This document shows positions 9,958-50,970 of a DNA stretch of 51,132 bases, piece by piece (position 1 is the first letter of the stretch; every line of letters begins with the position of its first letter). This DNA comes from an uncultured Prevotellaceae bacterium (GTDB lineage Bacteria > Bacteroidota > Bacteroidia > Bacteroidales > Bacteroidaceae). Made by a program: the position numbers and the translations under genes. The stretch is taken from positions 1 to 51,132 of the forward strand of contig ONCQ01000017.1 of the NCBI GenBank assembly GCA_900316355.1, given 5' to 3'. The notes under the pieces were generated by a model. It made no database searches, was not told the origin of the DNA, and worked only from the letters and a program-made list of their open reading frames with translations.

Positions 9958-11268
9958 ATGAGTATCAACATATCTTCGCGCCAGCCTCACCCCTCCATCA
10001 CGGGAGGGGTCGGGGGTGGGTCTTCCTCTTTGATATGGCGCCTCTTGCGCCGCCACATCAGCATCGGCCAGCTCGCAGGCTTCTTCTTCGCCAACCTGCT
10101 GGGAATGCTGATAGTGCTGCTGTCGATGCAGTTCTATGAGGACATCGTGCCCGCCTTCTCGGGCGAGGATGGCGTGATGAAGAACACCTATCTCATTGTC
10201 TCCAAGCGCATCTCTGCCGTCACCACGCTGCGTGGTGAGGCGCAGCCGTTTACCGATGCCGACATCCGTGATTTCGAGTCGCAGCGCTTCACGCGGCAGG
10301 TGGGCGCCTTCACGGCTTCCCAGTTCAAGGTCTATGCCTCTCTCTCCGTGGGCGGCATGGGCATGGGCACCGATATGTTCTTCGAGAGCGTCCCCGATGC
10401 CTTCGTCGATAGCCGTTGGCCCAGCGGTGTGGCTTATGACTCCGGTTCCTTCCCCGAGGAGGTGCCCATCATCCTGCCCCGTTCCTATCTCGCCATCTAC
10501 AACTTCGGCTTTGCACAGAGTCAGTCGTTGCCCAAGGTGTCCGAGGGTGTGGTCTCGATGGTAGAGTTGGGCATCCGTCTGCGTGGCGAGGGTGGTGCAG
10601 AGCGCCATCTGAAAGGGCGTGTGGTGGGCTTCAGCAACAGGCTGAACACCGTCCTCGTGCCCCAGGCCTTCATGCAGCGCGCCAATGCCGAACTCTCGCC
10701 CAACGCTGCTGCCGAGCCTACCCGTCTGATTGTGGAGGTCAAGAACCCCACCGACGATGCCATCGCCGCCTACATCCGCGATAAAGGCTACGAACTGGAG
10801 AATGACACGCTCGAAGCTGGGCGCGCCACCTATTTCCTGAAGGTCGTCGCAGCTGTCATCATGGCTGTGGGTCTGCTCATCAGCGCCCTCTCATTCTATA
10901 TCCTAATGCTCAGCATCTTCCTGCTGGTGCAGAAGAATGCCGAGAAGTTGCAGAACCTCTTGCTCATCGGCTATTCACCCTCCCGCGTGTCACGCCCCTA
11001 CCAGTTGCTCACGGTGGGTCTGAACGCCCTTGTGCTGCTGCTCTCGCTGGCGCTGCTCTTCTGGATTCGCGGCCTCTATCTCGAGCGTCTGTGGCAGATG
11101 TTCCCGACGCTCAGCGAGGGCTCCGTGTCGATGACCATCCTCCTGGGCGTGGCCCTCTTCGTGGTCGTCTCCTTCTTCAACATCATTGCCATCCGCCGGA
11201 AAATCAACAGCCTCACGCCCCGTCGCAAGAGCCTGAAGGGGGGCTTATATCATCATATCAATGGATAA
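9958..11268 (+). CDS. FtsX-type ABC transporter permease
   Basis: The 436 residues show one N-terminal transmembrane helix (about 38-58, LAGFFFANLLGMLIVLLSM), a periplasmic domain of about 230 residues, then three helices (about 298-320, 345-365, 385-410), the FtsX/MacB permease layout. It pairs with the ATPase encoded 9 bases upstream. Residues 9-24 (QPHPSITGGVGGGSSS) are encoded by a GC-rich palindromic repeat unit inserted near the N-terminus, so the cytoplasmic leader probably carries foreign repeat-derived residues. An alternative explanation, that translation starts downstream, is unlikely because the next ATG lies past the first helix. The last 8 bases overlap the start of the kinase-RapZ gene. 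Confidence 0.8.
   Translation: MSINISSRQPHPSITGGVGGGSSSLIWRLLRRHISIGQLAGFFFANLLGMLIVLLSMQFYEDIVPAFSGEDGVMKNTYLIVSKRISAVTTLRGEAQPFTDADIRDFESQRFTRQVGAFTASQFKVYASLSVGGMGMGTDMFFESVPDAFVDSRWPSGVAYDSGSFPEEVPIILPRSYLAIYNFGFAQSQSLPKVSEGVVSMVELGIRLRGEGGAERHLKGRVVGFSNRLNTVLVPQAFMQRANAELSPNAAAEPTRLIVEVKNPTDDAIAAYIRDKGYELENDTLEAGRATYFLKVVAAVIMAVGLLISALSFYILMLSIFLLVQKNAEKLQNLLLIGYSPSRVSRPYQLLTVGLNALVLLLSLALLFWIRGLYLERLWQMFPTLSEGSVSMTILLGVALFVVVSFFNIIAIRRKINSLTPRRKSLKGGLYHHING
9985..10023. repeat. Palindromic repeat unit inside the permease gene (plus orientation)
   Basis: A CACCCCTCC/GGGAGGGGT palindrome is followed by the G-rich tail GGGGGTGGGTCTT. This is the same unit type as at 18.0 and 36.6 kb. It is translated as part of the permease N-terminus. 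No inverted partner is seen nearby. Confidence 0.75.
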
Positions 11269-12931
11269 ACAACCGCTCCTCGACCTCTATACCGCTTTCG
11301 CGGGCGCTGCTCCGCAAGCAGTCGATGCTATCACGGGTTCCGGCAGCAATCGCCAGTATTTCCGTCTCACCTCAGCAGCCGGGCACACCGTCATCGGTGT
11401 CATCGGCACCTCCGTGGAGGAGAACCACGCCTTCATCACCCTCGCCCATCATTTCCATGAGAAGGGCCTCTCTGTGCCGCAGGTGCTGGCCGTCTCCGCC
11501 GATGAGCGCTGCTATCTGCAGGAAGACTTGGGCTCGCGCTCCCTCTTCGATGCCTTGAAAGACGGCCGTGAGGCCGGCGGGCAGTACAGCGAGCGGGAGC
11601 AGGAACTGCTGCGGCGCACCATTGCCCAGCTGCCACGCCTGCAGATTCTCGGAGGCCAGGGCCTCGATTTCTCTGTCTGCTATCCCCAGCCCGAGATGGA
11701 TGAGACGAACGTCATGTTCGACCTCAACTACTTCAAATACTGCTTCCTGAAGCCTTCCGGCATAGATTTCCATGAGTTGCGTCTGGAGCAGGATTTCAGA
11801 GCGTTGGCAAAGGACCTGCTCACAACAGACTCTCCCCCCGCCCTCCCTATAAGGGAGGGAGTGGAATGTTCTGAGCGGGCATCCGTATCTCCATCCGCAA
11901 AGGTAACTACTCCCCTCCCTCATAGGGAGGGGCAGGGGGGAGAGTCTGCCTTCCTCTACCGCGATTTCCAAGCCCGCAATGTGATGCTGGATGCTGCTGG
12001 CAACCCCTGCTTCATTGATTTCCAGGGCGGTCGCCGCGGTCCTATCTACTACGACCTCGCCAGCTTCCTCTGGCAGGCCTCAGCCCGCTATCCGCAGGCG
12101 CTGCGCGACGAGTTGATAGAAGTCTATCGCAAGAGCTTGGAGGAGGTGATGAGGGAGGTTTCTGGTTCCAAGTTTCAGGTTTCAAGTTTCAGGTTTCAGG
12201 TTTCAAGTTTCAGGTTTCAGGTTTCAAGTTTCAGGTTATTTGTTCTCTTCCGCCTCCTGCAAGTCCTCGGTGCCTACGGCTTCCGCGGCTATTTCGAGCG
12301 TAAGAAGCATTTCCTCGACAGCATTCCGCCCGCTCTTGATAACCTGCGCGACCTGCTGAAGGATGAAGGCAGCTGCCCCTATCCCGAACTGCGCAAGGTC
12401 TTGGAAGCCCTCACTAAAAGTCAGGATCGCATTTCCCCCTCTTCCCCAAATGTAATTACTCCCCTCTCTACAAGAGAGGGGCAGGGGGGTGAGTCCGTAG
12501 TGGATGAGTCCGTAGGTGGTGAGTCTTCCCTTGTTGTCCGCGTATTTTCTTTTAGCTTCAAGCGCGGCATCCCCGAGGATGAGAGCGGCAACGGCGGAGG
12601 CTATGTCTTCGACTGCCGTTCCACGCACAACCCCGGGCGCTATGAGCCCTACAAGCAACTCACAGGCCTGGATGCTCCCGTCATCAAGTTTCTCGAGGAC
12701 GACGGCGAGATCCTCACCTTCCTCGACAGCGTCTATCGCCTGGCTGATGCCCATGTGGAGCGCTATCTGCAGCGCGGCTTCACAGACCTGATGTTCTCCT
12801 TCGGCTGTACGGGCGGTCAGCACCGCTCTGTGTATAGCGCCCAGCATCTGGCCGAGCATCTCCATGCGAAATACGGCATCCGCGTCATCCTCAACCATCG
12901 CGAGCAGGGCATCCATAAAGTGCTGGAATAG
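11261..12931 (+). CDS. Sugar/aminoglycoside-type phosphotransferase fused to a RapZ C-terminal domain
   Basis: Residues about 1-350 are an APH-fold kinase like AmgK, the anomeric MurNAc/GlcNAc kinase of cell-wall recycling, with a Gly-rich loop GSGSNRQYFRL, a catalytic loop YRDFQARN (233-240, Asp235) and FIDFQGGRRGP. Residues about 420-556 are a RapZ C-terminal domain with GCTGGQHRS (515-523), linked in other bacteria to glucosamine-6-phosphate sensing. This fusion is common in Bacteroidales; a role in amino-sugar recycling is inference. The gene is interrupted in frame by repeats: a palindromic pair (11827-11947) encoding about 40 residues just before the catalytic loop, a heptamer array (12166-12238) encoding SSFRFQV repeats, and another palindromic unit (12457-12496) in the interdomain linker. 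The 556-residue length reflects these insertions. Confidence 0.85.
   Translation: MDKQPLLDLYTAFAGAAPQAVDAITGSGSNRQYFRLTSAAGHTVIGVIGTSVEENHAFITLAHHFHEKGLSVPQVLAVSADERCYLQEDLGSRSLFDALKDGREAGGQYSEREQELLRRTIAQLPRLQILGGQGLDFSVCYPQPEMDETNVMFDLNYFKYCFLKPSGIDFHELRLEQDFRALAKDLLTTDSPPALPIREGVECSERASVSPSAKVTTPLPHREGQGGESAFLYRDFQARNVMLDAAGNPCFIDFQGGRRGPIYYDLASFLWQASARYPQALRDELIEVYRKSLEEVMREVSGSKFQVSSFRFQVSSFRFQVSSFRLFVLFRLLQVLGAYGFRGYFERKKHFLDSIPPALDNLRDLLKDEGSCPYPELRKVLEALTKSQDRISPSSPNVITPLSTREGQGGESVVDESVGGESSLVVRVFSFSFKRGIPEDESGNGGGYVFDCRSTHNPGRYEPYKQLTGLDAPVIKFLEDDGEILTFLDSVYRLADAHVERYLQRGFTDLMFSFGCTGGQHRSVYSAQHLAEHLHAKYGIRVILNHREQGIHKVLE
11827..11947. repeat. Inverted pair of palindromic units inside the kinase domain
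   Basis: The outer ends AGACTCTCCCCCC (11827-11839) and GGGGGGAGAGTCT (11935-11947) are exact reverse complements. Each end carries its own CCCTCCCT/AGGGAGGG palindrome, with a core of about 45 bases between them. The whole 121 bases are open in the gene's frame and encode SPPALPIREGVE and TTPLPHREGQGGES, five residues before the catalytic loop. Confidence 0.85.
12166..12238. repeat. Heptanucleotide array (TTTCAGG/TTTCAAG) inside the kinase gene
   Basis: About ten 7-base units, arranged as three copies of a 21-base block (TTTCAGG, TTTCAAG, TTTCAGG), encode the repeated peptide SSFRFQV. The 21-base block equals seven codons, so copy number changes by whole blocks keep the frame. Confidence 0.85.
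12457..12520. repeat. Palindromic repeat unit in the kinase-RapZ linker
   Basis: CCCCTCTCT/AGAGAGGGG is followed by the G-rich tail ending GGGGGGTGAGTCC (to 12496) and then two imperfect tandem copies of GAGTCCGTAG. It is translated as ITPLSTREGQGGES, the same frame as the copies at 11.9, 25.6 and 36.6 kb. A C-rich stretch at 12430-12450 may be a decayed partner. Confidence 0.75.
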
Positions 12932-12957
12932 CACAATATTAAGGCCTCTTTAGCGTT

Positions 12958-15393: not shown

Positions 15394-15429
15394 TTGTCCA
15401 TTGACAACAACAAAAACGATTCAACCGAT

Positions 15430-16767: not shown

Positions 16768-16781
16768 ACACAATTTTTAAT

Positions 16782-17915
16782 ATGACACAAATGATGAAAC
16801 ACATGAGACCGCTGCTGGCCGTATTCCTGGCCATCTTCAGCAGCACTGCGGCCATGGGACAATCCGACACGGTCGCCGTTGAGAACCCCGAAGCACTGCA
16901 GGAGAAGACCATCGTGCGCAAAGCCGTTGGCGAGAAGGCTCCTGACTGGCTCAAGGATGTCGCCGACCGCATCGACCTTCACGGCTACGCCCATGGCGGC
17001 TATGCCTACAATCACAGGGACGGAACCAACACAAACACCTTCGAACTCAAACGCGTTCTCTTCTGGGCCAACGCCCGCATCACCGACCGCTGGTCGTTCC
17101 TTTTTATGCACGATTTCTCGAGTGTCGTGCAGGAATATTACACAGACTTCCGCATCACGCGCAACAAGGCGCTGACCGTACGCTTAGGTCAGTTCAAGAA
17201 TGGTCTGACGCTCGAGAACCCCCTTTCCCCCACCGCCATGGAAGCCATCGATGTCTATAGCGAGGGCGTCACCTTCCTCTCCGGTTGCGGCAGCGACCCG
17301 CTCTTTGGCGTGCAGTACGGTCGTGACCTGGGTCTGTCGCTCTACGGCGAGACCAACAACGGCAAGCTGCGCTATGAGCTGCAGGTGATGAACGGACAGG
17401 GCATCAACAAGAAAGACGGCAACAACTTCAAGGACTTCATCGGGCGCATCGAATACCGCCCCGTGGCAGGTCTGAATCTCGTTGCCACCGGGCAGATAGG
17501 CCGTGGCCACGCCGTAGCCACCTCGCTCTACAACCCCGACATCAAGGCAGGCGACGATTACAAGCGCAACCGCTGGTCGGTGGGCTTCGACTATAAATGC
17601 AAGTGGATCAAGGCCCATGGCGAATACTTGGAGGGCTATGACGCCAGCGCCGTCAGCCGTGGTGGCTACCTCACCTGCTGCGTGCCCCTCGGCACACCGA
17701 AGGTGGAGCTCGTGGGCTCCTACGACTTCTTTAATTTCAACACAAGCCTGGACATGGACCAGCACAAGGCCATCGCCGGCTTGCAATATTGGTTCTTCAA
17801 GAAATGCCGCGTGCAGGTGCAGTACGTGTATATGAGTGCTTACAGGCTCGGGACTGAGTTCATCAAGAAACCCAGTCACAGCGTGCTGTGCCAGCTGCAG
17901 GTGAGGTTTAATTAA
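16782..17915 (+). CDS. Outer membrane porin of the OprO/OprP type
   Basis: The start is set at ATG 16782 (MTQMMKHMRPLLAVFLAIFS); ATG 16794 is an alternative. A signal peptide ends near residue 26 (AAMGQ). The remaining 350 residues are a beta-barrel rich in alternating aromatic strands (KRVLFWANARITDRWSFLFM, DFRITRNKALTVRLGQFK, KCRVQVQYVYMSAYRLG) and end in Phe-Asn, matching the phosphate-selective porin O/P family. Whether it passes phosphate is unknown. The stop codon TAA (17913-17915) overlaps the outer end of an inverted palindromic repeat pair that fills the gap to the SSS transporter gene, so co-transcription with it is possible. Confidence 0.8.
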   Translation: MTQMMKHMRPLLAVFLAIFSSTAAMGQSDTVAVENPEALQEKTIVRKAVGEKAPDWLKDVADRIDLHGYAHGGYAYNHRDGTNTNTFELKRVLFWANARITDRWSFLFMHDFSSVVQEYYTDFRITRNKALTVRLGQFKNGLTLENPLSPTAMEAIDVYSEGVTFLSGCGSDPLFGVQYGRDLGLSLYGETNNGKLRYELQVMNGQGINKKDGNNFKDFIGRIEYRPVAGLNLVATGQIGRGHAVATSLYNPDIKAGDDYKRNRWSVGFDYKCKWIKAHGEYLEGYDASAVSRGGYLTCCVPLGTPKVELVGSYDFFNFNTSLDMDQHKAIAGLQYWFFKKCRVQVQYVYMSAYRLGTEFIKKPSHSVLCQLQVRFN

Positions 17916-18060
17916 AGACCCACCCCCCTTGCCCCTCCCGTTAGGGAGGGGAGAGGGCAAATGGATATGATAAGATGTTTTTATAATAATGTTTAAAATC
18001 TAAAAATGATAACTGCCTCCCACGCCCCTCCCTAACGGGAGGGGTTGGGGGTGGGTCTTT
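17914..18060. repeat. Inverted pair of palindromic units between porin and SSS genes
   Basis: AAAGACCCACCCCC (17914-17927) and GGGGGTGGGTCTTT (18047-18060) are exact inverted ends. Each unit holds a CCCCTCCC/GGGAGGGG palindrome, and an AT-rich core of about 55 bases lies between them. The left end begins in the porin stop codon and the right end stops six bases before the next start codon, so the 147-base element is the entire intergenic region. Confidence 0.9.
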
Positions 18061-18066
18061 AATTCT

Positions 18067-23000: not shown

Positions 23001-23717
23001 GGCTTGGCTTTTGTACTTGGCAATGGTGAAGGAGGATGGTCTTCATATACAGCTAATTCATATTACCGAGACAATGGTAGTGGCGTTGTTATTGGCGGCA
23101 CATACGATAACGACAATGCTCAGTGGACGATGGAAGAAATATCATCCATCGATATCTCCCTCACTGCTATAGGTGACTATACTTATGCCACGCTTGGATT
23201 ACCATTTGGTGTCACCCTGCCCGCAGACGTGAAAGCATATATCCTTACCGTAAGTGGTGACTGGGCTATTCCGACAGAAATCAGTGAAGTGCCTGCAGGT
23301 ACGGGCGTTCTGTTGCGAGGCACATCTTCGTCTGTGACTTCGGCCACACTGACCATCAATGATGCCGCTTCAGCTACAACAGATGGCAACAAGCTTGTTC
23401 CTACCTATGTTGACATCACTGCTGCTCGCTCTGACGGTGAATATATCCTTGGTAATGGCGAAGACGGCCTCGGCTTCTACCAGCGTAAGTCCGGTAGAAA
23501 GATTGGTGCCAACAAGGCTTATCTACAGCTTGACGCAGATCTTGCTGTGAAGGGTCTTCTCCTAAACTTCGATATTGCAACGGGTATAGACGGCCTCACC
23601 CCCGACACCTCTCTCTCAAAGAAGGGAGAAGAGATTTTCAACCTCGCAGGTCAGCGCATGAGTCGCGTTCAGAAGGGCGTGAACATCGTCAATGGCAAGA
23701 AGGTACTCGTTAAGTAA
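20013..23717 (+). CDS. Large secreted multi-module surface protein with C-terminal secretion-tail-like motif
   Basis: The start is set at ATG 20013, which gives a clean signal peptide (MKKLLLLFCALLMLGISGVKA). The 1235 residues are Ser/Thr/Asn/Tyr-rich. Two helical linker segments of FIVAR-like spacing (about 450-490, YQSAIDFFNASEKTSSDLST; and about 870-905, ALDSYKAAVDASAIKTESYY) are each followed by a beta-rich module starting with a similar phrase (GKVYRIQSYV, GKYYVVKNVG). The last 25 residues (EEIFNLAGQRMSRVQKGVNI and NGKKVLVK) are the tail found on many Prevotella exported proteins, resembling type IX sorting tails. It is probably cell-surface, perhaps glycan- or protein-binding, with no recognised catalytic domain. 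Its base composition is far more AT-rich than its neighbours. Confidence 0.75.
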   Translation: MKKLLLLFCALLMLGISGVKADGLKVSTTESASAEYQYKIFCRNASTYYLGNTTNATNSGADYGLFAFYSADADGYTSGYYIYSIFNGKWLSYDAKASYENGDRGQNKVSLVDTKAAANPWYIAADNTDNKYYDIRAFQTDKDVDASGKAAWNWHGGASSNTSNTMGWYDYTDGNSGWGIVLAGGSASPVADRKIVALYNVPNDENLYALYNSSGTPKVSSTTGTTPQYFVLRHNGLDYQGEALYKIQKAECDGKYLHFQDFNAEAYNYTFLNTSSYFYSRYTYSSGTAAVSPYYNLFRIWPNSSDNSSRPYSNQVSLCNDAVVDMFSGGYSTISAPLNDKGKWNGRWKVVTLSGYTAWQVIITGTSSGAVTYTGPGLYSGATTQQSNDGIFVLTSATNPSSSDFTPSAVDGCCIDPTVTVDNTRKVVKVTYSDYTEAVNYLSNTPEGIGYPTSAVRDTYQSAIDFFNASEKTSSDLSTLNTALNTFKNTNTINLPEVGKVYRIQSYVKSPSKIAYIENKENAFTISSDASATELENLWIVRKSGDKVVLQSATNQDKYIIYSNPGLSTTGSDWTLSKGTEWPYISMYNASLGGGRYVACDPTNGYFGTVVTGKNYYAGSKTQSSGWSTDFKFVESDAYKLITYNLKWGETTLESQEALVAIGSAPSSPWSAPDYCDFSYGGVETIAANTTSVDVSLDWDGPFDISPDYANAVWYLMKINGTKWVSTGTTSDGVTPIIGIDNTTDTSADLWAFIGNPYEGIRLINKSTGDGYYGHANASLTMESGETNTLLSIAESETSFFLKNSSGLYMELYNDNTIGFTYAEPYLNFNKITVQGPYYYDLYMEKLALYEASADKVFGPTQSALDSYKAAVDASAIKTESYYNTAVSALNGIAKIYPEEGKYYVVKNVGTNKYLHIGAENDDFGQAGLYDVLTTSTLDASCVVRISKSDSKSYFNGQGLQYSWASASPNETTGNARAEAAPGKYAHYNVTTPGQAGLAFVLGNGEGGWSSYTANSYYRDNGSGVVIGGTYDNDNAQWTMEEISSIDISLTAIGDYTYATLGLPFGVTLPADVKAYILTVSGDWAIPTEISEVPAGTGVLLRGTSSSVTSATLTINDAASATTDGNKLVPTYVDITAARSDGEYILGNGEDGLGFYQRKSGRKIGANKAYLQLDADLAVKGLLLNFDIATGIDGLTPDTSLSKKGEEIFNLAGQRMSRVQKGVNIVNGKKVLVK

Positions 23718-25490: not shown

Positions 25491-25685
25491 AGACCCACCC
25501 CCGGACCTCACCCCTAACCCCTCTCCAAAGGGCGAGGGGGAAGACCCACCCCCGACCCCTCCCGTGGAGGGAGGGGAGATTGGTTACTATCAAGAATTTA
25601 ATTTTTTTCATATATGGATACGAATTCAAATCGTCAAGAACATCTTACTCCCCGCCCTACAAGGGAGGGGCAGGGGGGAGGGTCT
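25489..25685. repeat. Palindromic repeat cluster between and into the paaK genes
   Basis: AAAGACCCACCCCC begins at 25489 inside the paaK copy 1 stop codon. Two further C-rich units follow (25505-25540, 25541-25578), then an AT-rich core of about 65 bases that contains the copy 2 start codon (25614), then one plus-oriented unit (25645-25685) ending GGGAGGGTCT. The last unit is translated as LTPRPTREGQGGGSA. The element thus carries the intergenic region and the first codons of the next gene. Confidence 0.85.
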
Positions 25686-26984
25686 GCTTTCTTCAACCCC
25701 GAATTTGAGACTCTCTCCCGCACAGAGATAGAGGCATTGCAGCTGGAACGCCTGCAGAAGACGGTGCGCCACTGCATGAACAATGAGTTCTACCGCAAGA
25801 AGTTCGCGGAGGCGGGCATCACACCCGACGATATCAAGTCGCTGGCTGATGTGCGTAAGCTGCCCTTCACCACGAAGCAGGACCTGCGCGACACCTATCC
25901 CTTCGGCATGTCCTGCGTGCCTCTGCGCGACTGCGTGCGCCTGCACTCCAGCAGCGGCACGACGGGCAACCCGACAGTCATCCTGCACACGCAGAAGGAC
26001 CTCGACGAGTGGGCCAACCAGGTGGCGCGTAACCTGTGGATGGTGGGCCTGCGCCCCGACGATGTCTTCCAGAACTCCAGCGGCTATGGTATGTTCACGG
26101 GCGGCCTGGGCTTCCAGTATGGCGCAGAGCGGCTGGGGATGTTGACGGTGCCGGCAGCAGCGGGTAACTCGCTGCGACAGATTAAGTTCATCAAGGACTT
26201 CGGCACCACGGCCATCCACGCCATCCCGAGCTATGTCACCCGCCTCTACGAGGTGATGCAGCAGGAGGGCGTTGACCCGCGACGCGACACGAAGCTGAAG
26301 GTGCTGGCCATCGGCGCAGAGCCTCACAGCGAGGAACAGCGCAAGCGCATCGAGGAGATGATGGGCGTGAAGGCCTACAACTCCTTTGGCATGAGTGAGA
26401 TGTGCGGCCCGGGCGTGGGCTTCGAGTGCCCCGAGCAGAACGGTCTCCACTTCTGGGAGGACTACTACATCGTGGAGATTGTCAATCCCGAGACGCTGGA
26501 ACCCGTGCCCGACGGCGAGATTGGCGAGCTGGTGCTCACCACGCTCTGTCGCGAGGCGATGCCGCTGCTGCGCTATCGCACAAGAGACCTCACGCGCGTG
26601 CTGGGGCGCAGCTGCCCCTGTGGCCGCAACCATATCCGCCTCGACCGTATGCGCGGACGCAGCGACGACATGATTGTGCTGCGTGGCGTGAACATCTTCC
26701 CCATACAGATTGAGAAGATTCTCATGAAATTCCCCGAACTGGGTACGAACTATCTCATCACGCTCGTTACCGAGGACAACAACGACCAGATGATTGTCGA
26801 AGTGGAACTCAATGAACCCACCGATGACTACAATGCCATGCAGCGGCTGTCAAAGGAAATACGCCATCAGCTGGGCGATGAAATCCTGCTGAAGCCCATC
26901 GTGCGCATCGTGCCGAAGGGCACATTGCCCGTCAGCGAAGGTAAGGCCGTACGCGTGGTAGATAAGCGCAAGGTGTTCCAGTAA
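25614..26984 (+). CDS. paaK: Phenylacetate-CoA ligase family protein (PaaK-type), copy 2
   Basis: The 456 residues carry the same ordered motifs as copy 1: FTTKQDLRDTYPFGM, LHSSSGTTGNPTVILHTQKD, IGAEPHSEEQR, NSFGMSEMCGPGVGFEC, RYRTRDLTRVLGRSCPCGRN and MRGRSDDMIVLRGVNIFPIQ. Aligned with copy 1, the catalytic body starts at FFNPEFETLSRTEIEALQ. The 28 residues before it (MDTNSNRQEHLTPRPTREGQ and following) are an extension encoded by a repeat core and one palindromic unit, absent from copy 1. Both paralogues probably activate aryl acids to CoA thioesters, perhaps with different preferences. The stop codon is the first base triplet of a TAAACCA heptamer array. Confidence 0.9.
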   Translation: MDTNSNRQEHLTPRPTREGQGGGSAFFNPEFETLSRTEIEALQLERLQKTVRHCMNNEFYRKKFAEAGITPDDIKSLADVRKLPFTTKQDLRDTYPFGMSCVPLRDCVRLHSSSGTTGNPTVILHTQKDLDEWANQVARNLWMVGLRPDDVFQNSSGYGMFTGGLGFQYGAERLGMLTVPAAAGNSLRQIKFIKDFGTTAIHAIPSYVTRLYEVMQQEGVDPRRDTKLKVLAIGAEPHSEEQRKRIEEMMGVKAYNSFGMSEMCGPGVGFECPEQNGLHFWEDYYIVEIVNPETLEPVPDGEIGELVLTTLCREAMPLLRYRTRDLTRVLGRSCPCGRNHIRLDRMRGRSDDMIVLRGVNIFPIQIEKILMKFPELGTNYLITLVTEDNNDQMIVEVELNEPTDDYNAMQRLSKEIRHQLGDEILLKPIVRIVPKGTLPVSEGKAVRVVDKRKVFQ

Positions 26985-27043
26985 ACCATAAACCATAAAC
27001 CATAAACCTTAAACTTTAAACCTTAAACTTTAAACTTTAAACC
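26982..27043. repeat. TAAACCA/TAAACTT heptamer array
   Basis: About nine units (TAAACCA three times, then TAAACCT and TAAACTT variants) begin exactly with the stop codon of the second paaK gene and end 4 bases before the next start codon, filling the intergenic region. Confidence 0.85.
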
Positions 27044-27047
27044 AAAT

Positions 27048-35551: not shown

Positions 35552-36478
35552 ATGAATTTCGAGAAAATCAAGGGGCTCATAGATGCCCCGTTCACACCGA
35601 TGAACGCCGATGGCAGCATCAACCTGTCTATCATCCCCGAGTATGCCAACCTGCTCTATCGCAATGGCCTTAAAGGCGTGTTTATCAATGGCTCAAGCGG
35701 TGAGGGCTATATGCTCACCGAAGACGAGCGCAAGCAGATTGCCGAGGCTTGGATGGCTGCCACCAAGGATTTCCAGGACTTTAAGGTCATCGTGCACGTG
35801 GGCAGCACCTGCGTCCGCAGTTCCAAGAATCTTGCCGAGCACGCCCAAGCCATCGGTGCCTTCGGCATCGGCGCTATGGCACCTCCCTTCCCCAAGGTGG
35901 GACGCATTGAGGAACTGGTGAAGTACTGCGAGGAGATTGCCTGCGGTGCGCCGAAGCTTCCCTTCTACTTCTATCACATCCCCGCCTTCAATGGCGCCTT
36001 CCTCTCGATGCTCGACTTCCTGCAGGCTGTCGATGGTCGCATTCCCAACTTCGCCGGTATCAAGTACACCTTCGAGAGCCTCTATGAGTACAACCGCTGC
36101 CGTCGCTACAAGGACGGAAAGTTCGATATGCTCCACGGTCAGGACGAGACCATCCTCCCGTGCCTCGCCATGGGTGGTGCTCAGGGTGGCATCGGCGGCA
36201 CTACGAACTACAATGGCCGTTGCCTCGTGGGCATCATCGATGCTTGGAAGGCCGGTGACTTGGAGAAGGCTCGCGAGCTGCAGAACTACGCTCAGGATGT
36301 CATCGATGTCATCTGCCACTTCCGTGGTAACATCGTTGGCGGCAAGCGCATCATGAAGCTCATCGGTCTCGACCTGGGCCCCAACCGCACACCTTTCCAG
36401 AACATCACTCCCGAAGAGGAAGTGCGTCTGAAAGCCGAGCTCGACGCCATCGACTTCTTCAATCATTGCAATAAGTAG
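35552..36478 (+). CDS. nanA: N-acetylneuraminate lyase
   Basis: The enzyme splits N-acetylneuraminate into pyruvate and N-acetylmannosamine, the first cytoplasmic step of sialic acid use. The start at 35552 (MNFEKIKGLIDAPFTPMNAD) fits the family and the promoter; an upstream in-frame ATG at 35516 is less likely. The 308 residues form the class I aldolase barrel with NGSSGEGYML (46-55, carboxylate-binding), YFYHIPAF with the catalytic Tyr, GIKYTF with the Schiff-base Lys at about 171, and GQDETILPCLAMGG. It heads an operon with a mutarotase-symporter fusion and an N-acylglucosamine 2-epimerase, a complete uptake-and-catabolism set. Its TAG stop abuts a palindromic repeat unit. Confidence 0.93.
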   Translation: MNFEKIKGLIDAPFTPMNADGSINLSIIPEYANLLYRNGLKGVFINGSSGEGYMLTEDERKQIAEAWMAATKDFQDFKVIVHVGSTCVRSSKNLAEHAQAIGAFGIGAMAPPFPKVGRIEELVKYCEEIACGAPKLPFYFYHIPAFNGAFLSMLDFLQAVDGRIPNFAGIKYTFESLYEYNRCRRYKDGKFDMLHGQDETILPCLAMGGAQGGIGGTTNYNGRCLVGIIDAWKAGDLEKARELQNYAQDVIDVICHFRGNIVGGKRIMKLIGLDLGPNRTPFQNITPEEEVRLKAELDAIDFFNHCNK

Positions 36479-36649
36479 GACCTACCCCCAACCCCTCCCT
36501 AGGCAGGGAGGGGAGTAGTAACCTTATAAACAGAATTCCTTATGAAGAGATTGTTGTTTTTTCTCTTGGCTTTTATTTCTACCCTAAGCCTCTCTTTCGC
36601 ACAAGATACTACTCCCCTCCCTACAAGGGAGGGGCAGGGGGGAGGGTCT
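36479..36649. repeat. Inverted pair of palindromic units around the start of the kelch-SSS gene
   Basis: GACCTACCCCCAACCCCTCCCT (left unit, from 36479, adjoining the nanA stop) is mirrored by a right unit at 36606-36649 ending GGGAGGGTCT. The facing inner ends also pair (GGGGAGTAGTA with TACTACTCCCC). The core between them contains the start codon and signal peptide of the next gene, and the right unit is translated as TTPLPTREGQGGGSA directly after the predicted signal-peptide cleavage site. Confidence 0.85.
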
Positions 36650-39421
36650 GCCCATCGCTTCAACAACGCCTCCTTCTTGCCCCTTCCTGCCCTCTCCGCT
36701 TTTGGCGGTCAGGGCGTGAGTGGTGCTTTTGCCGGTTATATTCCGAAGGGCTTTTCAGTGCCTCACGACCGCGTTTTGGTGGCCGGAGGTTGCAACTTCC
36801 CTGATGTACCTGCCGCCGATGGTGGCCAGAAGGTCTTCTATACTGATATTTATGCGATTGCGCTCGATGGAAAGGAAAAATGGTGGCGTGCCGGTTCGCT
36901 GCCTTGTGCCCTTGCCTACGGAGCCAGTGTCACGACCCCTGAAGGCCTTGTCTGCCTTGGCGGTACAGCTGATGGTCAGAAGAGCGAGGACTTTGCTGTT
37001 CTCCTGACGCTTGGAACGAGCGGCGAGTCCATCAGTCAGAATCTGCCATCTCTGCCCAGCGCCCTCGACAACTTCGCCGCCGCTTACGGCGATGGCTATA
37101 TCTATGTCGCTGGAGGTCTGCATAATGGCATCCCCAACCGCAAGGCCTTCCGCCTGAAATGGCCGTTGCCTGCCTCGTGGTTTGAATCCCAGACAGGTGC
37201 TGCTTGGGAGGAACTCCCCGATGTGCCTGGCCCCGCCCGCGTGCAACCCGCAGCCGCCGTGCAGAAGGGAGCCCTCGCCAGCAACTTCTACCTCCTTGGC
37301 GGCTTCGATCCCCGCTATCGCAAGGCCGTCAGCAATGGCGTCTATTACGACACCAGGAAGGGTGAGTGGATGGCAACATCGCTGATAAAGCCCCTCTCTA
37401 ACTCCCCCCTGGGGGGGGAGGACTCCGTATCCTCTGGAGGAATGGATGATGGCATAGGCTTTGCGGCTCTCCCCCCCACGGGGGGAGCGGGGAGCGGGGC
37501 TTTGGTCGGTGCTTCCGCCCTGCCTTCCGGCGCTGCCCACATCCTCTGCTTCGGCGGTGTTAACAAAGAGATTTTCGAGGCGGCCTTGGAGCGCAACGCC
37601 CTCATCGCTGACACGGCGACCACAGCCGAGCAGCTGGAGACCCTCCGTGCCGAGGCTTACGCTTATATGACGCAAGACCCTGCCTGGTATCAGTTCCGTC
37701 GCAGCATCCTCGTCTATCACACCATCACCGACTCCTGGGCCGAGGTCTTCGACTCACCCCTCATCGCACGTGCCGGTGCTGCTGTTGTGCCCTTGGCCTC
37801 ACCCTCCGGTTCCCTCAGCGCCCTTGTCATCGGCGGCGAAGAGAAACCCGGTGTGCGCTCGGCGGATGCCACGCGCGTCGATATCACCTACACCGCTCAC
37901 TTCGGTTGGCTGAACTGGGTGGTGCTCATCCTGTACCTCTTGGGAATGGTCTATCTCGGCTACTACTTCATGAAGCGTGCCGGCAACTCCGGCGATGACT
38001 TCTTCAAGGGTGGCGGCCGCATCCCGTGGTGGGCTGCCGGCATCAGCATCTTCGCCACGATGCTCAGCGCCATCACCTACATGAGCATCCCCGCCAAGGC
38101 CTACGCCACCGACTGGACCTACTACCCGATGCAGATCTGCATCCTCTTGGTGTCGTTCCCCGTCATCAGGTACTACCTGCCTTTCTTCCGTCGTCTGAAC
38201 GTCACCACGGCTTACGAGTATCTCGAGCGCCGCTTCAACAGCGCCACCCGCCTGATGGCCAGCATCCTGTTCATCGTCTTCATGGTGGCCCGCACGGCTC
38301 TCGTGCTCTTCCTGCCGTCGTTGGCGATGACCGCTGTCACGGGCATTAATATATATATATGTATAGCGCTGATGGCCCTCATCACCATCCTCTACTGCAC
38401 GATGGGCGGTGTCGAGGCTGTCGTCTGGGGCGATGTCATCCAGGGCATCATCCTCGTGGGCGGTGCCATCCTCGCTGCCGTCTATCTGATTGTCAACACC
38501 GGCGACAACGGCGCCTCGGACTTCTGGCAGATTGCCACCGACCACGACAAGTTCCGCCTCTTCCTATTCGATGCCGAGAACCCGTTCGACTTCGTCAACG
38601 CCACGTGGTGGGTGGTCATCCTCGGCGGCTTGGCCAACAACCTCATCAGCTACACCAGTGACCAGACCGTCATCCAGCGCTACCTGACCACCTCCGACGA
38701 GAAGAGTGCCGCACGCGGCATCCTGACCAACGGTCTGATGTCCGTCATCGTGACCATTGCCTTCTTCACCATCGGCACAGGTCTCTACACCTTCTTCAAG
38801 ACACATCCTGCCGAGCTGGACATCACCATGGCCAAGGGCGATGCCATCTTCCCCTTCTTCATGATGAGCCAGCTGCCTGCCGGTCTTGCCGGTCTCCTCA
38901 TCGCTGCCGTCTTCGCCGCTACGATGTCCACTATCGCCTCCAACATTAACTCCATCTCCACGGCCTTCACGGTGGATCTCTGGGGTAAGATGAAGAAACA
39001 AACGCCCAAGGGCGGTGAGGTGAAGGTGGCCCGCATCGCAGGCATCTGCGCCGGCATGATAGGCATGGCTATTGCCTGGCTGATGGCTACCGTTGACATC
39101 CAGTCGCTCCTCGACTACTTCAACACCATCCTCGGTCTCCTCAGCGGTGCCATCGGCGGTCTGTTCATGATGGGTATCTTCTTCCCGCGCATCGGTTCGA
39201 AGGCTGCCATCATCGGCTTCCTCTGCGGCACAGCTACCGTCCTGTACATGAATTTCTTCACGCAGGCCAACTTCCTCCTCTTCGGCTTCGTCTCGATGCT
39301 CGTCAGCGTCCTCGTCGCCCTCATCCTCAGCATCTTCATGCCACAGCGGGAGGAGCAGAAGGGGTTGACATGGAAAGACCTCACCCCCCAATCCCCCTCT
39401 CCAAAGGGCGAGGGGGCGTAA
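36542..39421 (+). CDS. Kelch-type mutarotase (NanM-like) fused to a sodium:solute symporter
   Basis: The 959-residue protein has a signal peptide (about 1-21, STLSLSFAQ), a kelch-repeat domain like N-acetylneuraminate mutarotase (about 40-440; GGCNFPDVPAADGG, VAGGLHNGIPNRKAF, LLGGFDPRYRKAVSN, LVIGGEEKPGVRS), then an SSS-family transporter (about 455-945; YYFMKRAGNSGDDFFKGGGR, CTMGGVEAVVWGDVIQG, SYTSDQTVIQRYLTT, AATMSTIASNINSIS). The extracytoplasmic domain would convert released sialic acid to the preferred anomer and pass it to the linked symporter. Such fusions occur in Bacteroidales. Three stretches are repeat-derived: residues after the signal peptide, a linker in the kelch domain (37387-37503), and the last 12 residues (TPQSPSPKGEGA). 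Confidence 0.88.
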   Translation: MKRLLFFLLAFISTLSLSFAQDTTPLPTREGQGGGSAHRFNNASFLPLPALSAFGGQGVSGAFAGYIPKGFSVPHDRVLVAGGCNFPDVPAADGGQKVFYTDIYAIALDGKEKWWRAGSLPCALAYGASVTTPEGLVCLGGTADGQKSEDFAVLLTLGTSGESISQNLPSLPSALDNFAAAYGDGYIYVAGGLHNGIPNRKAFRLKWPLPASWFESQTGAAWEELPDVPGPARVQPAAAVQKGALASNFYLLGGFDPRYRKAVSNGVYYDTRKGEWMATSLIKPLSNSPLGGEDSVSSGGMDDGIGFAALPPTGGAGSGALVGASALPSGAAHILCFGGVNKEIFEAALERNALIADTATTAEQLETLRAEAYAYMTQDPAWYQFRRSILVYHTITDSWAEVFDSPLIARAGAAVVPLASPSGSLSALVIGGEEKPGVRSADATRVDITYTAHFGWLNWVVLILYLLGMVYLGYYFMKRAGNSGDDFFKGGGRIPWWAAGISIFATMLSAITYMSIPAKAYATDWTYYPMQICILLVSFPVIRYYLPFFRRLNVTTAYEYLERRFNSATRLMASILFIVFMVARTALVLFLPSLAMTAVTGINIYICIALMALITILYCTMGGVEAVVWGDVIQGIILVGGAILAAVYLIVNTGDNGASDFWQIATDHDKFRLFLFDAENPFDFVNATWWVVILGGLANNLISYTSDQTVIQRYLTTSDEKSAARGILTNGLMSVIVTIAFFTIGTGLYTFFKTHPAELDITMAKGDAIFPFFMMSQLPAGLAGLLIAAVFAATMSTIASNINSISTAFTVDLWGKMKKQTPKGGEVKVARIAGICAGMIGMAIAWLMATVDIQSLLDYFNTILGLLSGAIGGLFMMGIFFPRIGSKAAIIGFLCGTATVLYMNFFTQANFLLFGFVSMLVSVLVALILSIFMPQREEQKGLTWKDLTPQSPSPKGEGA
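37387..37503. repeat. Inverted palindromic pair inside the kelch domain
   Basis: AAAGCCCC (37387) and GGGGCTTT (to 37503) are the inverted outer ends; a CCCCCC/GGGGGG palindrome lies in each half. This subfamily differs from the AAAGACCC type. About 39 codons, including NSPLGGEDSVSSGG and PPTGGAGSGAL, are encoded in frame between two kelch blades. Confidence 0.75.
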
Positions 39422-39544
39422 TCACCTCTCACGGCAAAGCTTGTCTTAACGAATACATAAAAACTATCATTATGAATAATCAATCTGCACAACAAACTAC
39501 TCCCCCTCGCCCTTTGGAGAGGGGGCTGGGGGGTGAGGTCTCTT
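39374..39544. repeat. Inverted palindromic pair spanning stop and start codons
   Basis: AGACCTCACCCCCC (39376-39389) and GGGGGGTGAGGTCT (39528-39541) are exact inverted ends, and the CCCTCTCCAAAGGGCGAGGG palindrome recurs inverted in the right half. The element contains the last 16 codons and stop of the symporter fusion, the whole intergenic region, the start codon of the epimerase (39472) and its first 24 codons. Confidence 0.9.
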
Positions 39545-40819: not shown

Positions 40820-42031
40820 ATGATGCAGGAACGACTTTGGAACCGCAACTACTGTCGCGTGATGACGGCGAACTTCGCTCTGTTCTTCGCCTTCTATCTG
40901 CTGACACCCCTGTTGCCGCTGTATCTCGTGGAGCGCTTTGATGCCACGAAGGATGTGGTGGGACTCGTGCTGAGCGGCTACACGCTGACGGCCCTGTTGG
41001 CGCGCCCTTTCAGCGGCTATCTGGTGGACAGTTTCCCCCGCAAGCGGGTGCTGATGGTGTGCTTCTTCCTCTTCTTCATCTTCTTCGGCGGTTATCTGGG
41101 AGCCTCGTCGCTGCTGCTCTTCACCATCGTGAGGACATTACACGGCGCCCCCTTCGGAGCGCTGACCGTTGCCAATTCCACGGTGGCCATCGATGTGCTG
41201 CCGTCGTCGCGGCGCAATGAGGGCATAGGCTACTACGGCCTTTCCAATAACCTGGCGATGGCCACTGCCCCCATGGCTGCCATCTACCTCTATCGGCTGA
41301 CGGGCGATTTCCAGCTGCTGTTCTGGCTGGCGCTGCTCATTGCCGGCATAGGCATGATGGTTGACAGCCAGGTGAAGCTCCAAACAAAACCGCTCGCCAC
41401 CCCCCAACAGCCAACAGCTAACAGCCAACAGCCAATACGCCGCGGGCTCATCCGCCTCGACCGCTTCTTCCTCGTCCGAGGCTGGCTGTTGGCCGTCAAC
41501 ATGGTCTTCTTCGGCTTCTGTTTCGGCGTGGTGAGCAACTACCTCGCCATCTACAGCAAGGAGGTGATGGGCATCACCGGCGGCACAGGCACCTGGTTCC
41601 TGCTTCTCTCCGTGGGCCTTGTCGCATCCCGTCTGCAGGGTGCCCGTGCGCTGCGCGAGGGCAAGCTGCTGCTGAATGCCACGGAGGGCGTCATCATCTC
41701 TTCGGTGGCCTACACGCTCTTCGTCCTCTTCCCCAACGAGTTCGGCTACTATGGCTCGGCACTCCTGCTCGGCCTCGGCAACGGCCACCTCTGGCCCGCC
41801 TTCCAGAACATGATTATCTCCATGGCCCATCACAACGAGCGTGGCACCGCCAATTCCACGCTGCTCATCTCGTGGGATGTCGGCATCGGTCTCGGTGTGC
41901 TCTGTGGCGGTGTCGTCAGCGAGCTCGCCGGTTACACCCCCGCCTTCTGGGTTGTGGCCATCTCTCAGCTTGTGGGTGCCGCCCTCTTCCTCATGGCTAC
42001 GCGCGCCTTTTACCAAAAGCGACAATTATAA
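40820..42031 (+). CDS. MFS transporter (efflux-type)
   Basis: The 403 residues form 12 predicted helices with MFS signatures: LTPLLPLYLVERFDATKDVV in helix 1-2, the loop GYLVDSFPRKRVLM (motif A), and GLGNGHLWPAFQNM in the second half. Members of this group in Bacteroidales are annotated as arabinose efflux-like or general MFS carriers; the substrate is unknown. A start at 40823 is equivalent. The central cytoplasmic loop (about residues 195-206, QQPTANSQQPI) is encoded by a CCAACAG heptamer array. The gene follows the sialic acid operon on the same strand, separated by a strong hairpin, so transport of a sialic acid-related sugar is only a possibility. Confidence 0.82.
   Translation: MMQERLWNRNYCRVMTANFALFFAFYLLTPLLPLYLVERFDATKDVVGLVLSGYTLTALLARPFSGYLVDSFPRKRVLMVCFFLFFIFFGGYLGASSLLLFTIVRTLHGAPFGALTVANSTVAIDVLPSSRRNEGIGYYGLSNNLAMATAPMAAIYLYRLTGDFQLLFWLALLIAGIGMMVDSQVKLQTKPLATPQQPTANSQQPIRRGLIRLDRFFLVRGWLLAVNMVFFGFCFGVVSNYLAIYSKEVMGITGGTGTWFLLLSVGLVASRLQGARALREGKLLLNATEGVIISSVAYTLFVLFPNEFGYYGSALLLGLGNGHLWPAFQNMIISMAHHNERGTANSTLLISWDVGIGLGVLCGGVVSELAGYTPAFWVVAISQLVGAALFLMATRAFYQKRQL
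41404..41438. repeat. CCAACAG heptamer array inside the MFS gene
   Basis: Five 7-base units (CCAACAG, CCAACAG, CTAACAG, CCAACAG, CCAATAC) are translated as QQPTANSQQPI, the same 11-residue peptide as in the CbiH-CbiC protein. Because the unit length is 7, all three forward frames give the same heptapeptide series. Confidence 0.85.
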
Positions 42032-42955: not shown

Positions 42956-42974
42956 CACCCGCATTTGGCAATCT

Positions 42975-43182: not shown

Positions 43183-43223
43183 TAGGCCGTCTTAGCGTCC
43201 AGGAATAGGCGCAAGCGAAACTG

Positions 43224-46467: not shown

Positions 46468-46547
46468 GCTGAGTAAACACGTTTTATAAACATACCATGT
46501 TTTTCGCCTCTGTGAAGAGGTTACTATCTGCTAATTTTTGAAGGATT

Positions 46548-46582
46548 GGGACCGCTGCGTGCCTCGTGCACGCGCGCGTCCC
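46548..46582 (+). promoter_or_regulatory. Large imperfect hairpin before the adenosyltransferase gene
   Basis: GGGAC..GCGTGC pairs with GCACGC..GTCCC across 35 bases with a small internal loop. It lies 27 bases before the start at 46609 and after a small CCTCT/AGAGG hairpin (46507-46520). No T run follows. It may attenuate or stabilise expression between the riboswitch-controlled genes and the downstream genes. Confidence 0.4.
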
Positions 46583-46608
46583 ATTCCACTTTTGGAAATT
46601 GAACATTT

Positions 46609-47163: not shown

Positions 47164-47191
47164 CCACTTTTTTTACACCACAACCCAGAGA

Positions 47192-49279: not shown

Positions 49280-49283
49280 GGGG

Positions 49284-49362
49284 GCAGGAGTTCAGGAGTT
49301 CAAGAGTTCAAGAATTCAAAGGTTCAAAGAGTTCAAGGGTTCAAAAGTTCAAAGAGTTCAAG
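49284..49362. repeat. GAGTTCAA-type tandem array
   Basis: About nine degenerate units of 8 or 9 bases (GAGTTCAG, GAGTTCAA, GAATTCAAA, GGTTCAAA, GGGTTCAAAA and similar) occupy the entire gap between the second receptor and the start codon of the CbiH-CbiC gene. The reverse complement resembles the array inside the anSME gene. Confidence 0.85.
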
Positions 49363-50970
49363 ATGAATAGAATCATCATTGCCGGCATCGGTCCAGGCAG
49401 TCCCGAGGACATCACCCCCGCGGTGCTCAACGCCGTGCGGGAGGCAGATGTCGTGGTGGGCTATAAATATTATTTTCAGTTTGTTGAGGCTTACATGAAG
49501 GAGGGCTGCGAGTGTATCGACACGGGCATGAAACGCGAACGCGAGCGTGCTGAGATGGCCTTCCAACTGGCCGAGCAAGGCAAGACCGTGGTGGTCATCT
49601 CCAGCGGCGATGCCGGCATCTATGGCATGGCTCCCCTCATCTATGAGATGCAGCGCGAGCGCATGGCCAATAGCCAACAGCCAACAGCCAATAGCCAACA
49701 GCCAATCACCATCACCACCCTTCCTGGCATCAGCGCCTTCCAGAAGGCGGCATCGCTGCTGGGCGCGCCCATTGGGCACGACTTCTGCATCATCTCGCTC
49801 TCAGATTTGATGACGCCGTGGTCGCTGATTGAGAAGCGCATCAGGGCGGCTGCCGTGGGCGACTTCGTCACGGCTATCTACAACCCCAAGTCGCATGGCC
49901 GCTACTGGCAGCTCAATCGTCTCATAGAACTCTTCCTGCAGGAAGGGCGTAGCGCTGAGACTCCCGTGGGTTATGTGCGGCAGGCTGGACGCCCAGAGCA
50001 GGAAGTGAAGGTGACGACGCTTGGCGCCTTTGACCCCGAGGACGTGGATATGTTCACCGTCGTCATCATTGGGAACAGTCAGAGTTATATAGAGCCTCAC
50101 CCCCTAACCCCCTCTCCCGTGGGCGAGGGGGGAGCCTGCGGCGAGGGGAGACAGGTTATTGTCACGCCGCGAGGCTACTATTCTCATTCCTCCAGCAGAC
50201 CTGCCCCAAGTCCCATCCATGAGAGAGGGGAGTGGGCTGGCGGAGAGGGGCTTATCATGAAGACCAGTGGACAAGAAAGTCTCCCCTCACGGGGAGATTT
50301 AGAGGGGTCTGTAGTGGGACCAGGCGCCTCCATTATGAATGAATCGTTCCGCACGATTCTCTCTGAGATGCAGCACCCCGATGTGCCCACGTGGCGCCTG
50401 TGGCCGCTGCTGCACGCCATCCACACGACGGTGGATTTCGGTATGGAGGACTGCCTGTGGATGGACGACCGCGCCACGGAGTTTCTATATAATAAGGTGG
50501 CTGACGGCAGCCTCAAGCATATCGTCACCGATGTCTCCATGGCTGCCGCCGGCATCCGCAAGGGTGCCCTGCAGCGCCTCGGCATCGAAGTCCACTGCTA
50601 CATCAACGACCCACGCGTAGCTGACATCTGCCGCACACAGTCCCCCTCCCTCACCCGCAGTCAGGCCTGTATGCGCTTGGCTGCCGAGGAATATCCCGAC
50701 GCCCTCTATGTCGTAGGCAACGCCCCCACAGCCCTCTTTGAGATCTGCGACCTTGTGCGCAAAGGCAAGCTCCATCCCGCAGGCATCATCGCCGCTCCCG
50801 TCGGCTTCGTTCATGTCTGCGAGAGCAAGCACGCCGTGAAGACCCTCCGCGACATCCCCAAGATTATCGTCGAAGGTCGCAAGGGCGGCAGCAACCTCGC
50901 TGCTACCCTCGTCAACGCCATCCTCACCTACGACGATGCCGCCCAGCTCCATCCTGGCCGCGACCTCTAA
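49363..50970 (+). CDS. cbiH: Precorrin-3B C17-methyltransferase fused to precorrin-8X methylmutase (CbiH-CbiC)
   Basis: The start is ATG 49363 (MNRIIIAGIGPGSPEDITPA). Residues about 1-280 are a CbiH/CobJ tetrapyrrole methylase (GIGPGSPEDITPA, VVVISSGDAGIYGMAPLIYE, LPGISAFQKAASLLGAPIGH, AIYNPKSHGRYWQL, VVIIGNSQSYIE). Residues about 335-535 are CbiC/CobH (HAIHTTVDFGMEDCL, VTDVSMAAAGIRKGAL, VVGNAPTALFEICDL, APVGFVHVCESK). The two steps contract the ring and shift a methyl group in corrin synthesis. Repeats interrupt it: PTANSQQ peptides (49667-49708) before LPGISAF, and palindromic units (50092-50315) between NSQSYIE and VTPRGYY and through the linker, which is unusually long. With the CbiK-like gene it suggests de novo corrin synthesis. 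Confidence 0.9.
   Translation: MNRIIIAGIGPGSPEDITPAVLNAVREADVVVGYKYYFQFVEAYMKEGCECIDTGMKRERERAEMAFQLAEQGKTVVVISSGDAGIYGMAPLIYEMQRERMANSQQPTANSQQPITITTLPGISAFQKAASLLGAPIGHDFCIISLSDLMTPWSLIEKRIRAAAVGDFVTAIYNPKSHGRYWQLNRLIELFLQEGRSAETPVGYVRQAGRPEQEVKVTTLGAFDPEDVDMFTVVIIGNSQSYIEPHPLTPSPVGEGGACGEGRQVIVTPRGYYSHSSSRPAPSPIHERGEWAGGEGLIMKTSGQESLPSRGDLEGSVVGPGASIMNESFRTILSEMQHPDVPTWRLWPLLHAIHTTVDFGMEDCLWMDDRATEFLYNKVADGSLKHIVTDVSMAAAGIRKGALQRLGIEVHCYINDPRVADICRTQSPSLTRSQACMRLAAEEYPDALYVVGNAPTALFEICDLVRKGKLHPAGIIAAPVGFVHVCESKHAVKTLRDIPKIIVEGRKGGSNLAATLVNAILTYDDAAQLHPGRDL
49667..49708. repeat. CCAATAG/CCAACAG heptamer array inside cbiH
   Basis: Six in-phase 7-base units are translated as NSQQPTANSQQPI between the GIYGMAPLIYEMQ and ITTLPGISAF blocks of the methyltransferase, a place where relatives have a short turn. 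Confidence 0.85.
50092..50315. repeat. Cluster of palindromic units in the CbiH-CbiC linker
   Basis: A minus-oriented unit (50092-50147, CCTCACCCCCTAACCCCCT then CCCGTGGGCGAGGGG) falls inside the end of the CbiH domain. A degenerate middle block (50194-50251) and a plus-oriented unit (50278-50313, CTCCCCTCACGGGGAG, then GAGGGGTCT) fill the linker. All are open in the gene's frame. Confidence 0.75.

Follow-up and report, generated by a model that had tools for sequence, protein, structure and literature searches.

Rickettsia palindromic elements (RPEs) have a preferred reading frame. They are about 150 bp long and belong to Rickettsia, and the review text cited here attributes to them a conserved encoded peptide (PMC10969869). 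REPINs are doublets of inverted repetitive extragenic palindromic (REP) units, and the cited part of their description places them outside genes (PMC3116915). Intragenic dimers are also on record: the relevant part of PMC3733652 reports REP dimers within open reading frames (ORFs) of Opitutus terrae, Thauera and R. conorii, where they encode 20–30 residues, describes unit ends of GTAG/CGTC REPs that supply stop codons, and names CGTC repeats in Bacteroidetes in one sentence. Here, a family of palindromic units of about 40 nt is described from an uncultured Prevotellaceae bacterium. The units came to notice in a stretch of 51,132 nt (positions 1 to 51,132 of contig ONCQ01000017.1, assembly GCA_900316355.1; hereafter the window) during a reading of its letters alone, the sequence-only reading. 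They are probably the inverted halves of REPIN-type, non-autonomous mobile doublets that inserted at gene junctions and protein loops, were tolerated as peptides and then decayed. A group of rumen Bacteroidales carries hundreds of such short mobile hairpins, in and between genes, readable as linker or leader peptides.

The repeats are real and far commoner than the sequence-only reading had stated. R1, a covariance model of one hairpin over 40 positions, was trained on 14 window units, and 14 of its matches in the window are the model's own input. Across the source genome, a 3.16-Mb draft in 69 contigs, R1 gave at least 151 matches at E <=1. Since an exact core pattern matched the genome 44 times, 22 times per strand, and its reversed control not once, the units do not occur by chance. 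For closer study, 80 stretches (458 kb) around 150 listed places were combined with the window into a sample of 509 kb, which is centred on units and hence not a random portion of the genome; it holds 236 units at E <=0.01. Neighbours less than 300 bp apart are arranged '-+' in 78 of 84 cases, with three '++', two '+-' and one '--' (binomial p ~8e-40 against 1/4, a guide figure only, the copies being related), in keeping with the earlier claim of inverted pairs in one order. Because these 78 neighbours stand tail to tail, the element is a doublet in which two inverted copies of the unit enclose a spacer of 32–164 nt. The outer end of the unit is GTCT or GTCC in 181 of the 236. Three window doublets fold as single-stranded DNA (ssDNA) into one long hairpin each (z -6.1, -7.1 and -6.0; none of 200 shuffles was as stable).

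Genes were called with an in-house codon-score script rather than a standard caller, and their starts are uncertain. On these calls, 134 of the 236 units (57%) overlap genes, 124 of them fully, and 102 are intergenic; with a coding fraction of 0.883 in the sample, genes are used below chance, yet are far from avoided. As many as 78 units, spread over 49 genes, lie more than 90 nt from either gene end. The 78 doublets divide into 36 that straddle a gene end, 18 with both units in one gene and 24 that are wholly intergenic. Doublets contain 24 gene starts, two of which fall inside the unit itself and are doubtful, and 17 gene stops. Typical leaders encoded by units are MNNSQSIQTTPRPTREGQGGGS and MSNNNESTRQPLPSLTGGAGGGS.

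All 78 mid-gene units are read in an open phase. Summed over subfamily and direction, 54 of the 78 occupy the modal phase; draws among stop-free phases gave a mean of 39.2 and a maximum of 51, with 0 of 20,000 as high, so that frame use is unequal. With stops counted over the entire doublet and 25 nt of its inner flank, the mean rose to 45.1 and 24 of 20,000 draws were as high; for unpaired units (n = 45) the modal sum was 32 against 25.1, with 55 of 20,000 draws as high. The copies being related, none of these figures is a strict probability. With doublet and flank included, 33 of the 78 units have just one open frame, and stop avoidance thus explains part of the shared frame. The sequence-only reading had held that the other two frames are also free of stops and that stop avoidance alone does not suffice. 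The first statement is true of some copies and fails for others, since among 15 same-strand subfamily-1 units inside genes one phase is stop-free in only five and the other two in all 15; the second survives insofar as a frame excess persists, and falls short insofar as stop avoidance does account for part of it. Selection on the peptide may lie behind the remaining bias.

Comparison with orthologues bears out that units are translated inside unrelated proteins: in the kinase, in IorA and in the kelch-SSS protein, in-frame insertions into unrelated conserved genes have orthologues in which the residues are missing or other units occupy that loop. The kinase doublet (11827-11864, minus; 11908-11947, plus) lies within the APH-kinase/RapZ-C gene 11261-12931 and encodes TDSPPALPIREGVECSERASVSPSAKVTTPLPHREGQGGESA. 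It occupies a linker that spans 70 residues from the HELRLE to the QARN motif in the window protein and 33–41 residues in 28 of 28 other readable orthologues (of 29 given), where the doublet is absent; both strands were read at the kinase loci, of which 29 of 30 were usable. A single plus-strand unit in the same gene (12457-12496) is translated as ITPLSTREGQGGESV.

The alpha subunit of indolepyruvate oxidoreductase, IorA, at locus L114 (a TIGR03336 match under its cut-off) has 599 residues, and close relatives match it mostly from about residue 23 to 588, both ends being unmatched because they are encoded by units. A further pair of units fills two variable loops that flank a conserved GIIASGIAYNYV; across the 28 of 30 loci that could be read, these loops hold different or decayed units in other species, or no unit at all. 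At the boundary with the beta-subunit gene, 23 of 28 loci were readable. By eye, among the 22 other loci, L170 has both units, L151 the right unit only, L150 apparent outer ends only and L165 a long junction, and 18 junctions are short and ordinary. As a separate observation, an AACTTTC array similar to the tandem repeats of the window fills an IorA loop in L151.

For the kelch-SSS locus, 80 orthologous loci were fetched and 30 searched with R1; the gene start could be read in 28 of 30 and the loop in 14 of 32. The kelch loop of the window contains a 114-nt doublet of a related but distinct family (37388-37501). L238 and L246 have this loop without a unit, L258 has one unit in it, and L235, L237, L239 and L242 have other doublets. 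L235 and L242 have a 116-nt insert in common that matches at 100%, yet the adjoining 150-300 nt to its left and right match at only 77-79%. The native loop is longer in the distant orthologues L256, L259, L261 and L263, and the 'empty' state of L238 and L246 may therefore be derived. Elsewhere, two pairs of twin doublets lying 1-2 kb apart have flanks as good as unrelated: at C16 47215/49354 the element is 95.4% identical and the 100-nt flanks 60 and 41%, and at C34 44850/45855 the element is 89.7% identical and the flanks 57 and 50%. Collectively, the twins, the L235/L242 insert and the presence or absence among orthologues lend support to the view that the doublet moves as a whole and turns over fast.

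At the start of the kelch gene, a cassette bounded by a doublet (36478-36517, minus; 36610-36649, plus) comprises the stop of the upstream gene, a unit, the 5' untranslated region (5'UTR) and signal peptide, and a second unit, which is translated as DTTPLPTREGQGGGS. Over the 6 kb around it, L235 mostly matches the window at 89-100%, yet has a different block here, with dense differences at 36479-36650 and agreement on either side. L238 is less similar overall, yet has the same block, agreeing with the window over 36484-36708 save at 36691. From the positions of these differences, the block shared with L238 starts within the left unit and ends somewhere in 36650-36708. In other species the gene start has both units, one or none (28 of 30 loci, by eye). 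It is conceivable, if doubtful, that doublets are exchangeable cassettes that rebuild gene ends: they would supply or enclose stops, 5'UTRs, starts, leaders and signal peptides, and strains would swap these blocks faster than the surrounding genes. If true, bacteria would in this way shuffle the 5' ends of genes and the loops of proteins.

Within the genus, 53 of 61 genomes have matches at E <=0.01, with a per-genome range from 0 to at least 109, and eight have none. Across the family, matches at E <=0.001 were found in 55 of 151 genomes and 13 of 30 genera; unit counts per genome are lower bounds, at most about 43 being countable in the family survey. Most named matches from the kelch-locus search are assemblies from ruminant metagenomes, deposited under Bacteroidaceae, Bacteroidales or Prevotellaceae. 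An assembly artefact, which the sequence-only reading had allowed for, is unlikely: the same loci hold units in independent genomes, and two-contig genomes carry the family. In two such genomes of another genus (15 stretches picked around matches), 42 of 50 units are intergenic and eight lie in three genes, so heavy intragenic use is not universal.

If the units are halves of mobile doublets, their history might run as follows. Doublets of ~110-240 bp, two inverted units each, would form long single-strand hairpins and insert at gene junctions and in variable protein loops, probably moved by single-strand transposition through a Y1/HUH enzyme of the kind of REP-associated tyrosine transposases (RAYTs). 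Within genes they would persist because the unit has few stops and the net insertion preserves the frame, and the encoded peptide, rich in Pro, Gly, Ser and Glu, would be tolerable as a linker, N-terminal leader or C-terminal tail. Decay, loss of one unit, nested insertions or block replacement would follow.

A candidate enzyme was sought with PF01797 in 25 genomes, 16 of them of the genus. Within the genus there is one clear match (G013, E 2.2e-18, a 175-aa frame), and the remaining matches are weak and lie in large open frames. Four of the weakly matching proteins were used to build a family, A3, with genes at L060 4098-5432 (plus), L061 3108-4265 (minus), L062 2959-4239 (minus) and L064 2411-3601 (minus). 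A3 proteins, 385-444 aa in length, are divergent members of the HUH/Y1 type whose C-terminal half is conserved, and the motifs DHxH and YxxDNP are invariant in the four aligned. For the two proteins scanned, the sole NCBIfam match is REP_Tyr_transpos (E 2.6e-10 and 1.6e-8; 40.3 and 34.5 bits, below the cut-off of 80), and a search of solved structures gave weak matches to IS200/IS605-type transposases only, the best at E ~0.01. A3 matches occur in 38 of the 61 genomes of the genus, including all 15 with at least 90 units, and A3 correlates with unit count (Spearman 0.62), a correlation weakened by lower-bound counts, A3 matches split into pieces, incomplete drafts and uncorrected ancestry. Four of the 23 genomes lacking A3 have at least 20 units, and eight with A3 have fewer than 10. 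The link holds in the five g22 genomes tested and fails in g46, g35, g37 and g19. The sequence-only reading had proposed to look for a RAYT gene; what was found is a divergent RAYT-like protein that tracks copy number within the genus, an association that breaks down in several other genera and is only suggestive. A RAYT as the proven driver was rejected, since the link fails in several genera and A3 flanks are without units; A3 is a lead to a possible mobiliser. Short tandem palindromes of their own, seen by eye, adjoin several A3 genes.

That weakened correlation is one of several points that tell against mobile doublets moved by an A3 enzyme. Outside the genus, among 31 hand-picked unit-rich and unit-poor genomes, G095, G097, G164, G175, G189, G221 and G222 have many units and no A3, and G106 and G129 have A3 and few units. 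No units were found flanking A3 genes, the nearest lying ~440 bp away (L107), in a check of 14 genes by eye over up to 330 nt per side, five at 420 nt and 25 loci scanned with R1, some of these overlapping. Further, 80 of the 236 units have no detected '-+' partner, the fold of a single unit by itself is not significantly more stable than that of shuffles (z -1.8; 14 of 200 as stable), and in the two genomes of the other genus close neighbours comprise 15 '-+', six '--' and two '++'. A clean target-site duplication was sought at the kelch loop, and none was backed by all empty sites. Finally, the GIIASGIAYNYV between the IorA units is a native segment rather than a spacer owned by the element, as are the signal peptides bracketed by units at the kelch gene start, and insertion of a single doublet does not predict such native segments.

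These native segments would be accounted for if two units were inserted jointly on either side of an existing host segment of 30-160 bp, for example where a region melts and a nuclease acts on each of its strands, one unit being captured per strand in the same polarity. One preferred unit order with spacing as variable as 32-164 nt is also in line with this. Against it, the kelch-loop and kinase doublets stand whole at one place, the twins and the L235/L242 insert bring the spacer along, and 3 of the 10 copies in the second family described below resemble one another in their spacer; joint flanking is therefore considered unlikely. A second alternative is that the insertions are old and owe their spread and renewal mostly to homologous recombination, both between strains and between dispersed units, transposition now being rare. 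Replacement of the block 36478-36649 in the window relative to L235, within flanks ~89-99% alike and with the L238-shared block starting at 36484, is what such exchange would produce, and so are IorA loops that hold units of differing sequence in several species. Exchange alone, however, can hardly yield a 116-nt identical stretch whose flanks diverge at once, or copy numbers from 0 to more than 100 among congeners, and recombination as the main cause seems improbable. That the units are host hairpins conserved as regulators or terminators, and only seem to lie in ORFs through gene-calling error, is very improbable despite the 102 intergenic units and the strong folding of doublets, given that the IorA, kinase and kelch frames continue past the insert in both directions and can be aligned to insert-free orthologues and that eight of 61 congeners are without a match.

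Units were located at the window positions that the sequence-only reading had named, with R1 matches across the window; two of its pairs, 37387-37503 and ~50196-50315, score below the R1 threshold, the former being the related but distinct family of the kelch loop. Translation confirmed a common frame for its five plus-oriented copies (11.9, 12.46, 25.65, 36.6 and 39.5 kb). Its list of translated copies can be extended by the one at 9985, read as MSINISSRQPHPSITGGVGGGS if ATG 9958 is the start; this single subfamily-2 unit (9986-10023, plus) would then form the N-terminal leader SRQPHPSITGGVGGGS, whereas the codon-score caller put the gene start at 10045. An intergenic doublet (17916-17955, minus; 18021-18058, plus) with a strong ssDNA hairpin fills the gap between a gene end at 17915 and an ORF start at 18067. 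A weak covariance-model match lies at 23592-23630. Across the start of a PaaK-like CoA ligase gene (25614), a doublet (25542-25579, minus; 25646-25685, plus) has the ATG within its spacer and supplies the leader MDTNSNRQEHLTPRPTREGQGGGS; its left, subfamily-2 unit is abutted at 25542 by a minus-strand subfamily-3 unit (25504-25541) flanked on both sides by a AGACCCACCCCCG arm. The subfamily-3 doublet at the junction of the kelch-SSS and GlcNAc 2-epimerase genes (39377-39417, minus; 39501-39540, plus) encodes both the C-terminus of the former and the N-terminus MNNQSAQQTTPPRPLERGLGGEVS of the latter. A subfamily-3 unit at 50093-50132 (minus), within gene 49363-50970, is translated as EPHPLTPSPVGEGG, and additional, degenerate units follow up to ~50315.

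Three subfamilies can be distinguished by loop and stem; owing to changes in the regular expressions, their labels vary slightly between analyses. Units of subfamily 3 are frequently nested within the palindrome of another unit (by eye, among the copies listed). One such case, at L102 2490-2564, sits in another unit's stem-loop and has near-identical un-nested copies in L119 and L133, a possible clean insertion site. L102, L113, L119 and L133 have nearly the same 5' region, with a unit before gene starts resembling ATGAAAAACACACT, and are possibly a dispersed gene family with a unit in its leader. A second family of inverted doublets, with CCCCCGAGGGGG stems (CCCCCGAGGGGG ... CCCCCTCGGGGGC), has 10 distinct copies in the sample (at L086, L091, L093, L105, L114, L115, L122, L130 and L140). 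Because 3 of the 10 (L086, L122 and L140) share a similar spacer by eye, the spacer belongs to the element in this family. Some of its copies are translated, giving ...EAPSGAVWGA in IorA and MutS2. A strict polarity of doublets with an A end and a B end, suggested by eye in several copies, was not supported by crude motif scoring (49 AA, 24 AB and 5 BB without a threshold; 4 AB and 1 AA at 0.65) and was set aside.

Other repeats were seen in passing. Tandem repeats, mostly of 7- or 8-nt units (e.g. GTTTCAA/GGTTTCA), lie in the window at 3073-3156, 12156-12244 (within the kinase gene) and 26982-27044, and others of the same type at 41390-41436, 49286-49359 and 49660-49720. A 208-nt direct repeat (110-317 and 1178-1385, 78%) begins in both copies with an inverted-repeat stretch like TTGTGGCGAATTCGCCATAATTAA.

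Mobile hairpins of this genus lie in frame where metabolic enzymes would gain linkers, tails or N-terminal leaders, which suggests that a REPIN-like repeat can supply new protein sequence on a large scale outside Rickettsia. With many species that have more than 100 copies or none, and with sister genomes that differ in whether a given loop is filled, it becomes directly testable whether the repeats are passengers or useful, and the two-contig, unit-bearing genomes of the family point to cultured relatives. In the mostly open-access literature searched, covered as titles and opening abstracts, neither a description of this family in Bacteroidales nor the supply of gene starts with leaders or block turnover at doublets of such repeats was found.

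How the family stands to known systems can be set out by kind. Like REPINs and bacterial interspersed mosaic elements (BIMEs), it consists of two inverted palindromic units with a variable spacer that form one long hairpin, doublets outnumber singles and copies are many. REPINs, however, are extragenic in the cited part of their description (PMC3116915), whereas more than half of the sampled units here overlap genes; a cognate RAYT flanked by units was not found in the A3 flanks examined; and the units, at ~40 nt, are C/G-rich with GTCT or GTCC ends, unlike those of REPINs and BIMEs. With regard to miniature inverted-repeat transposable elements (MITEs), the outer ends of the units are alike, and no clean target duplication was seen at the sites examined. 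The A3 proteins share DHxH and YxxDNP with TnpA-REP/RAYT enzymes, as well as their best NCBIfam match, and differ in size, in a long C-terminal part, in a sub-cut-off score and in genes not flanked by units; the cited portion of PMC6006769 describes related subclasses of HuH proteins in which the C-terminal domain is large and REPs are lacking. RPEs, to which the sequence-only reading had turned for precedent, are alike, going by the cited review text (PMC10969869), in their in-frame translation within unrelated genes, and are set apart, again by description, by the different phylum, the doublets, the leaders at gene starts and the several families seen here. That precedent holds and is wider than Rickettsia, since it includes the GTAG/CGTC REPs, whose dimers, in the part of the source that treats them, are likewise inserted in ORFs with unit ends supplying stops (PMC3733652). 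The tag of GTAG REPs, as CTAC (GTAG on the other strand), occurs in the 16-nt inner edge of 54 of the 236 units; unlike in the GTAG/CGTC REPs, about half of the sampled copies lie in genes, in many species of one genus. Translated intragenic palindromes are thus already known in kind; it is their scale, the supply of starts and leaders, and the turnover of blocks that are unusual here.

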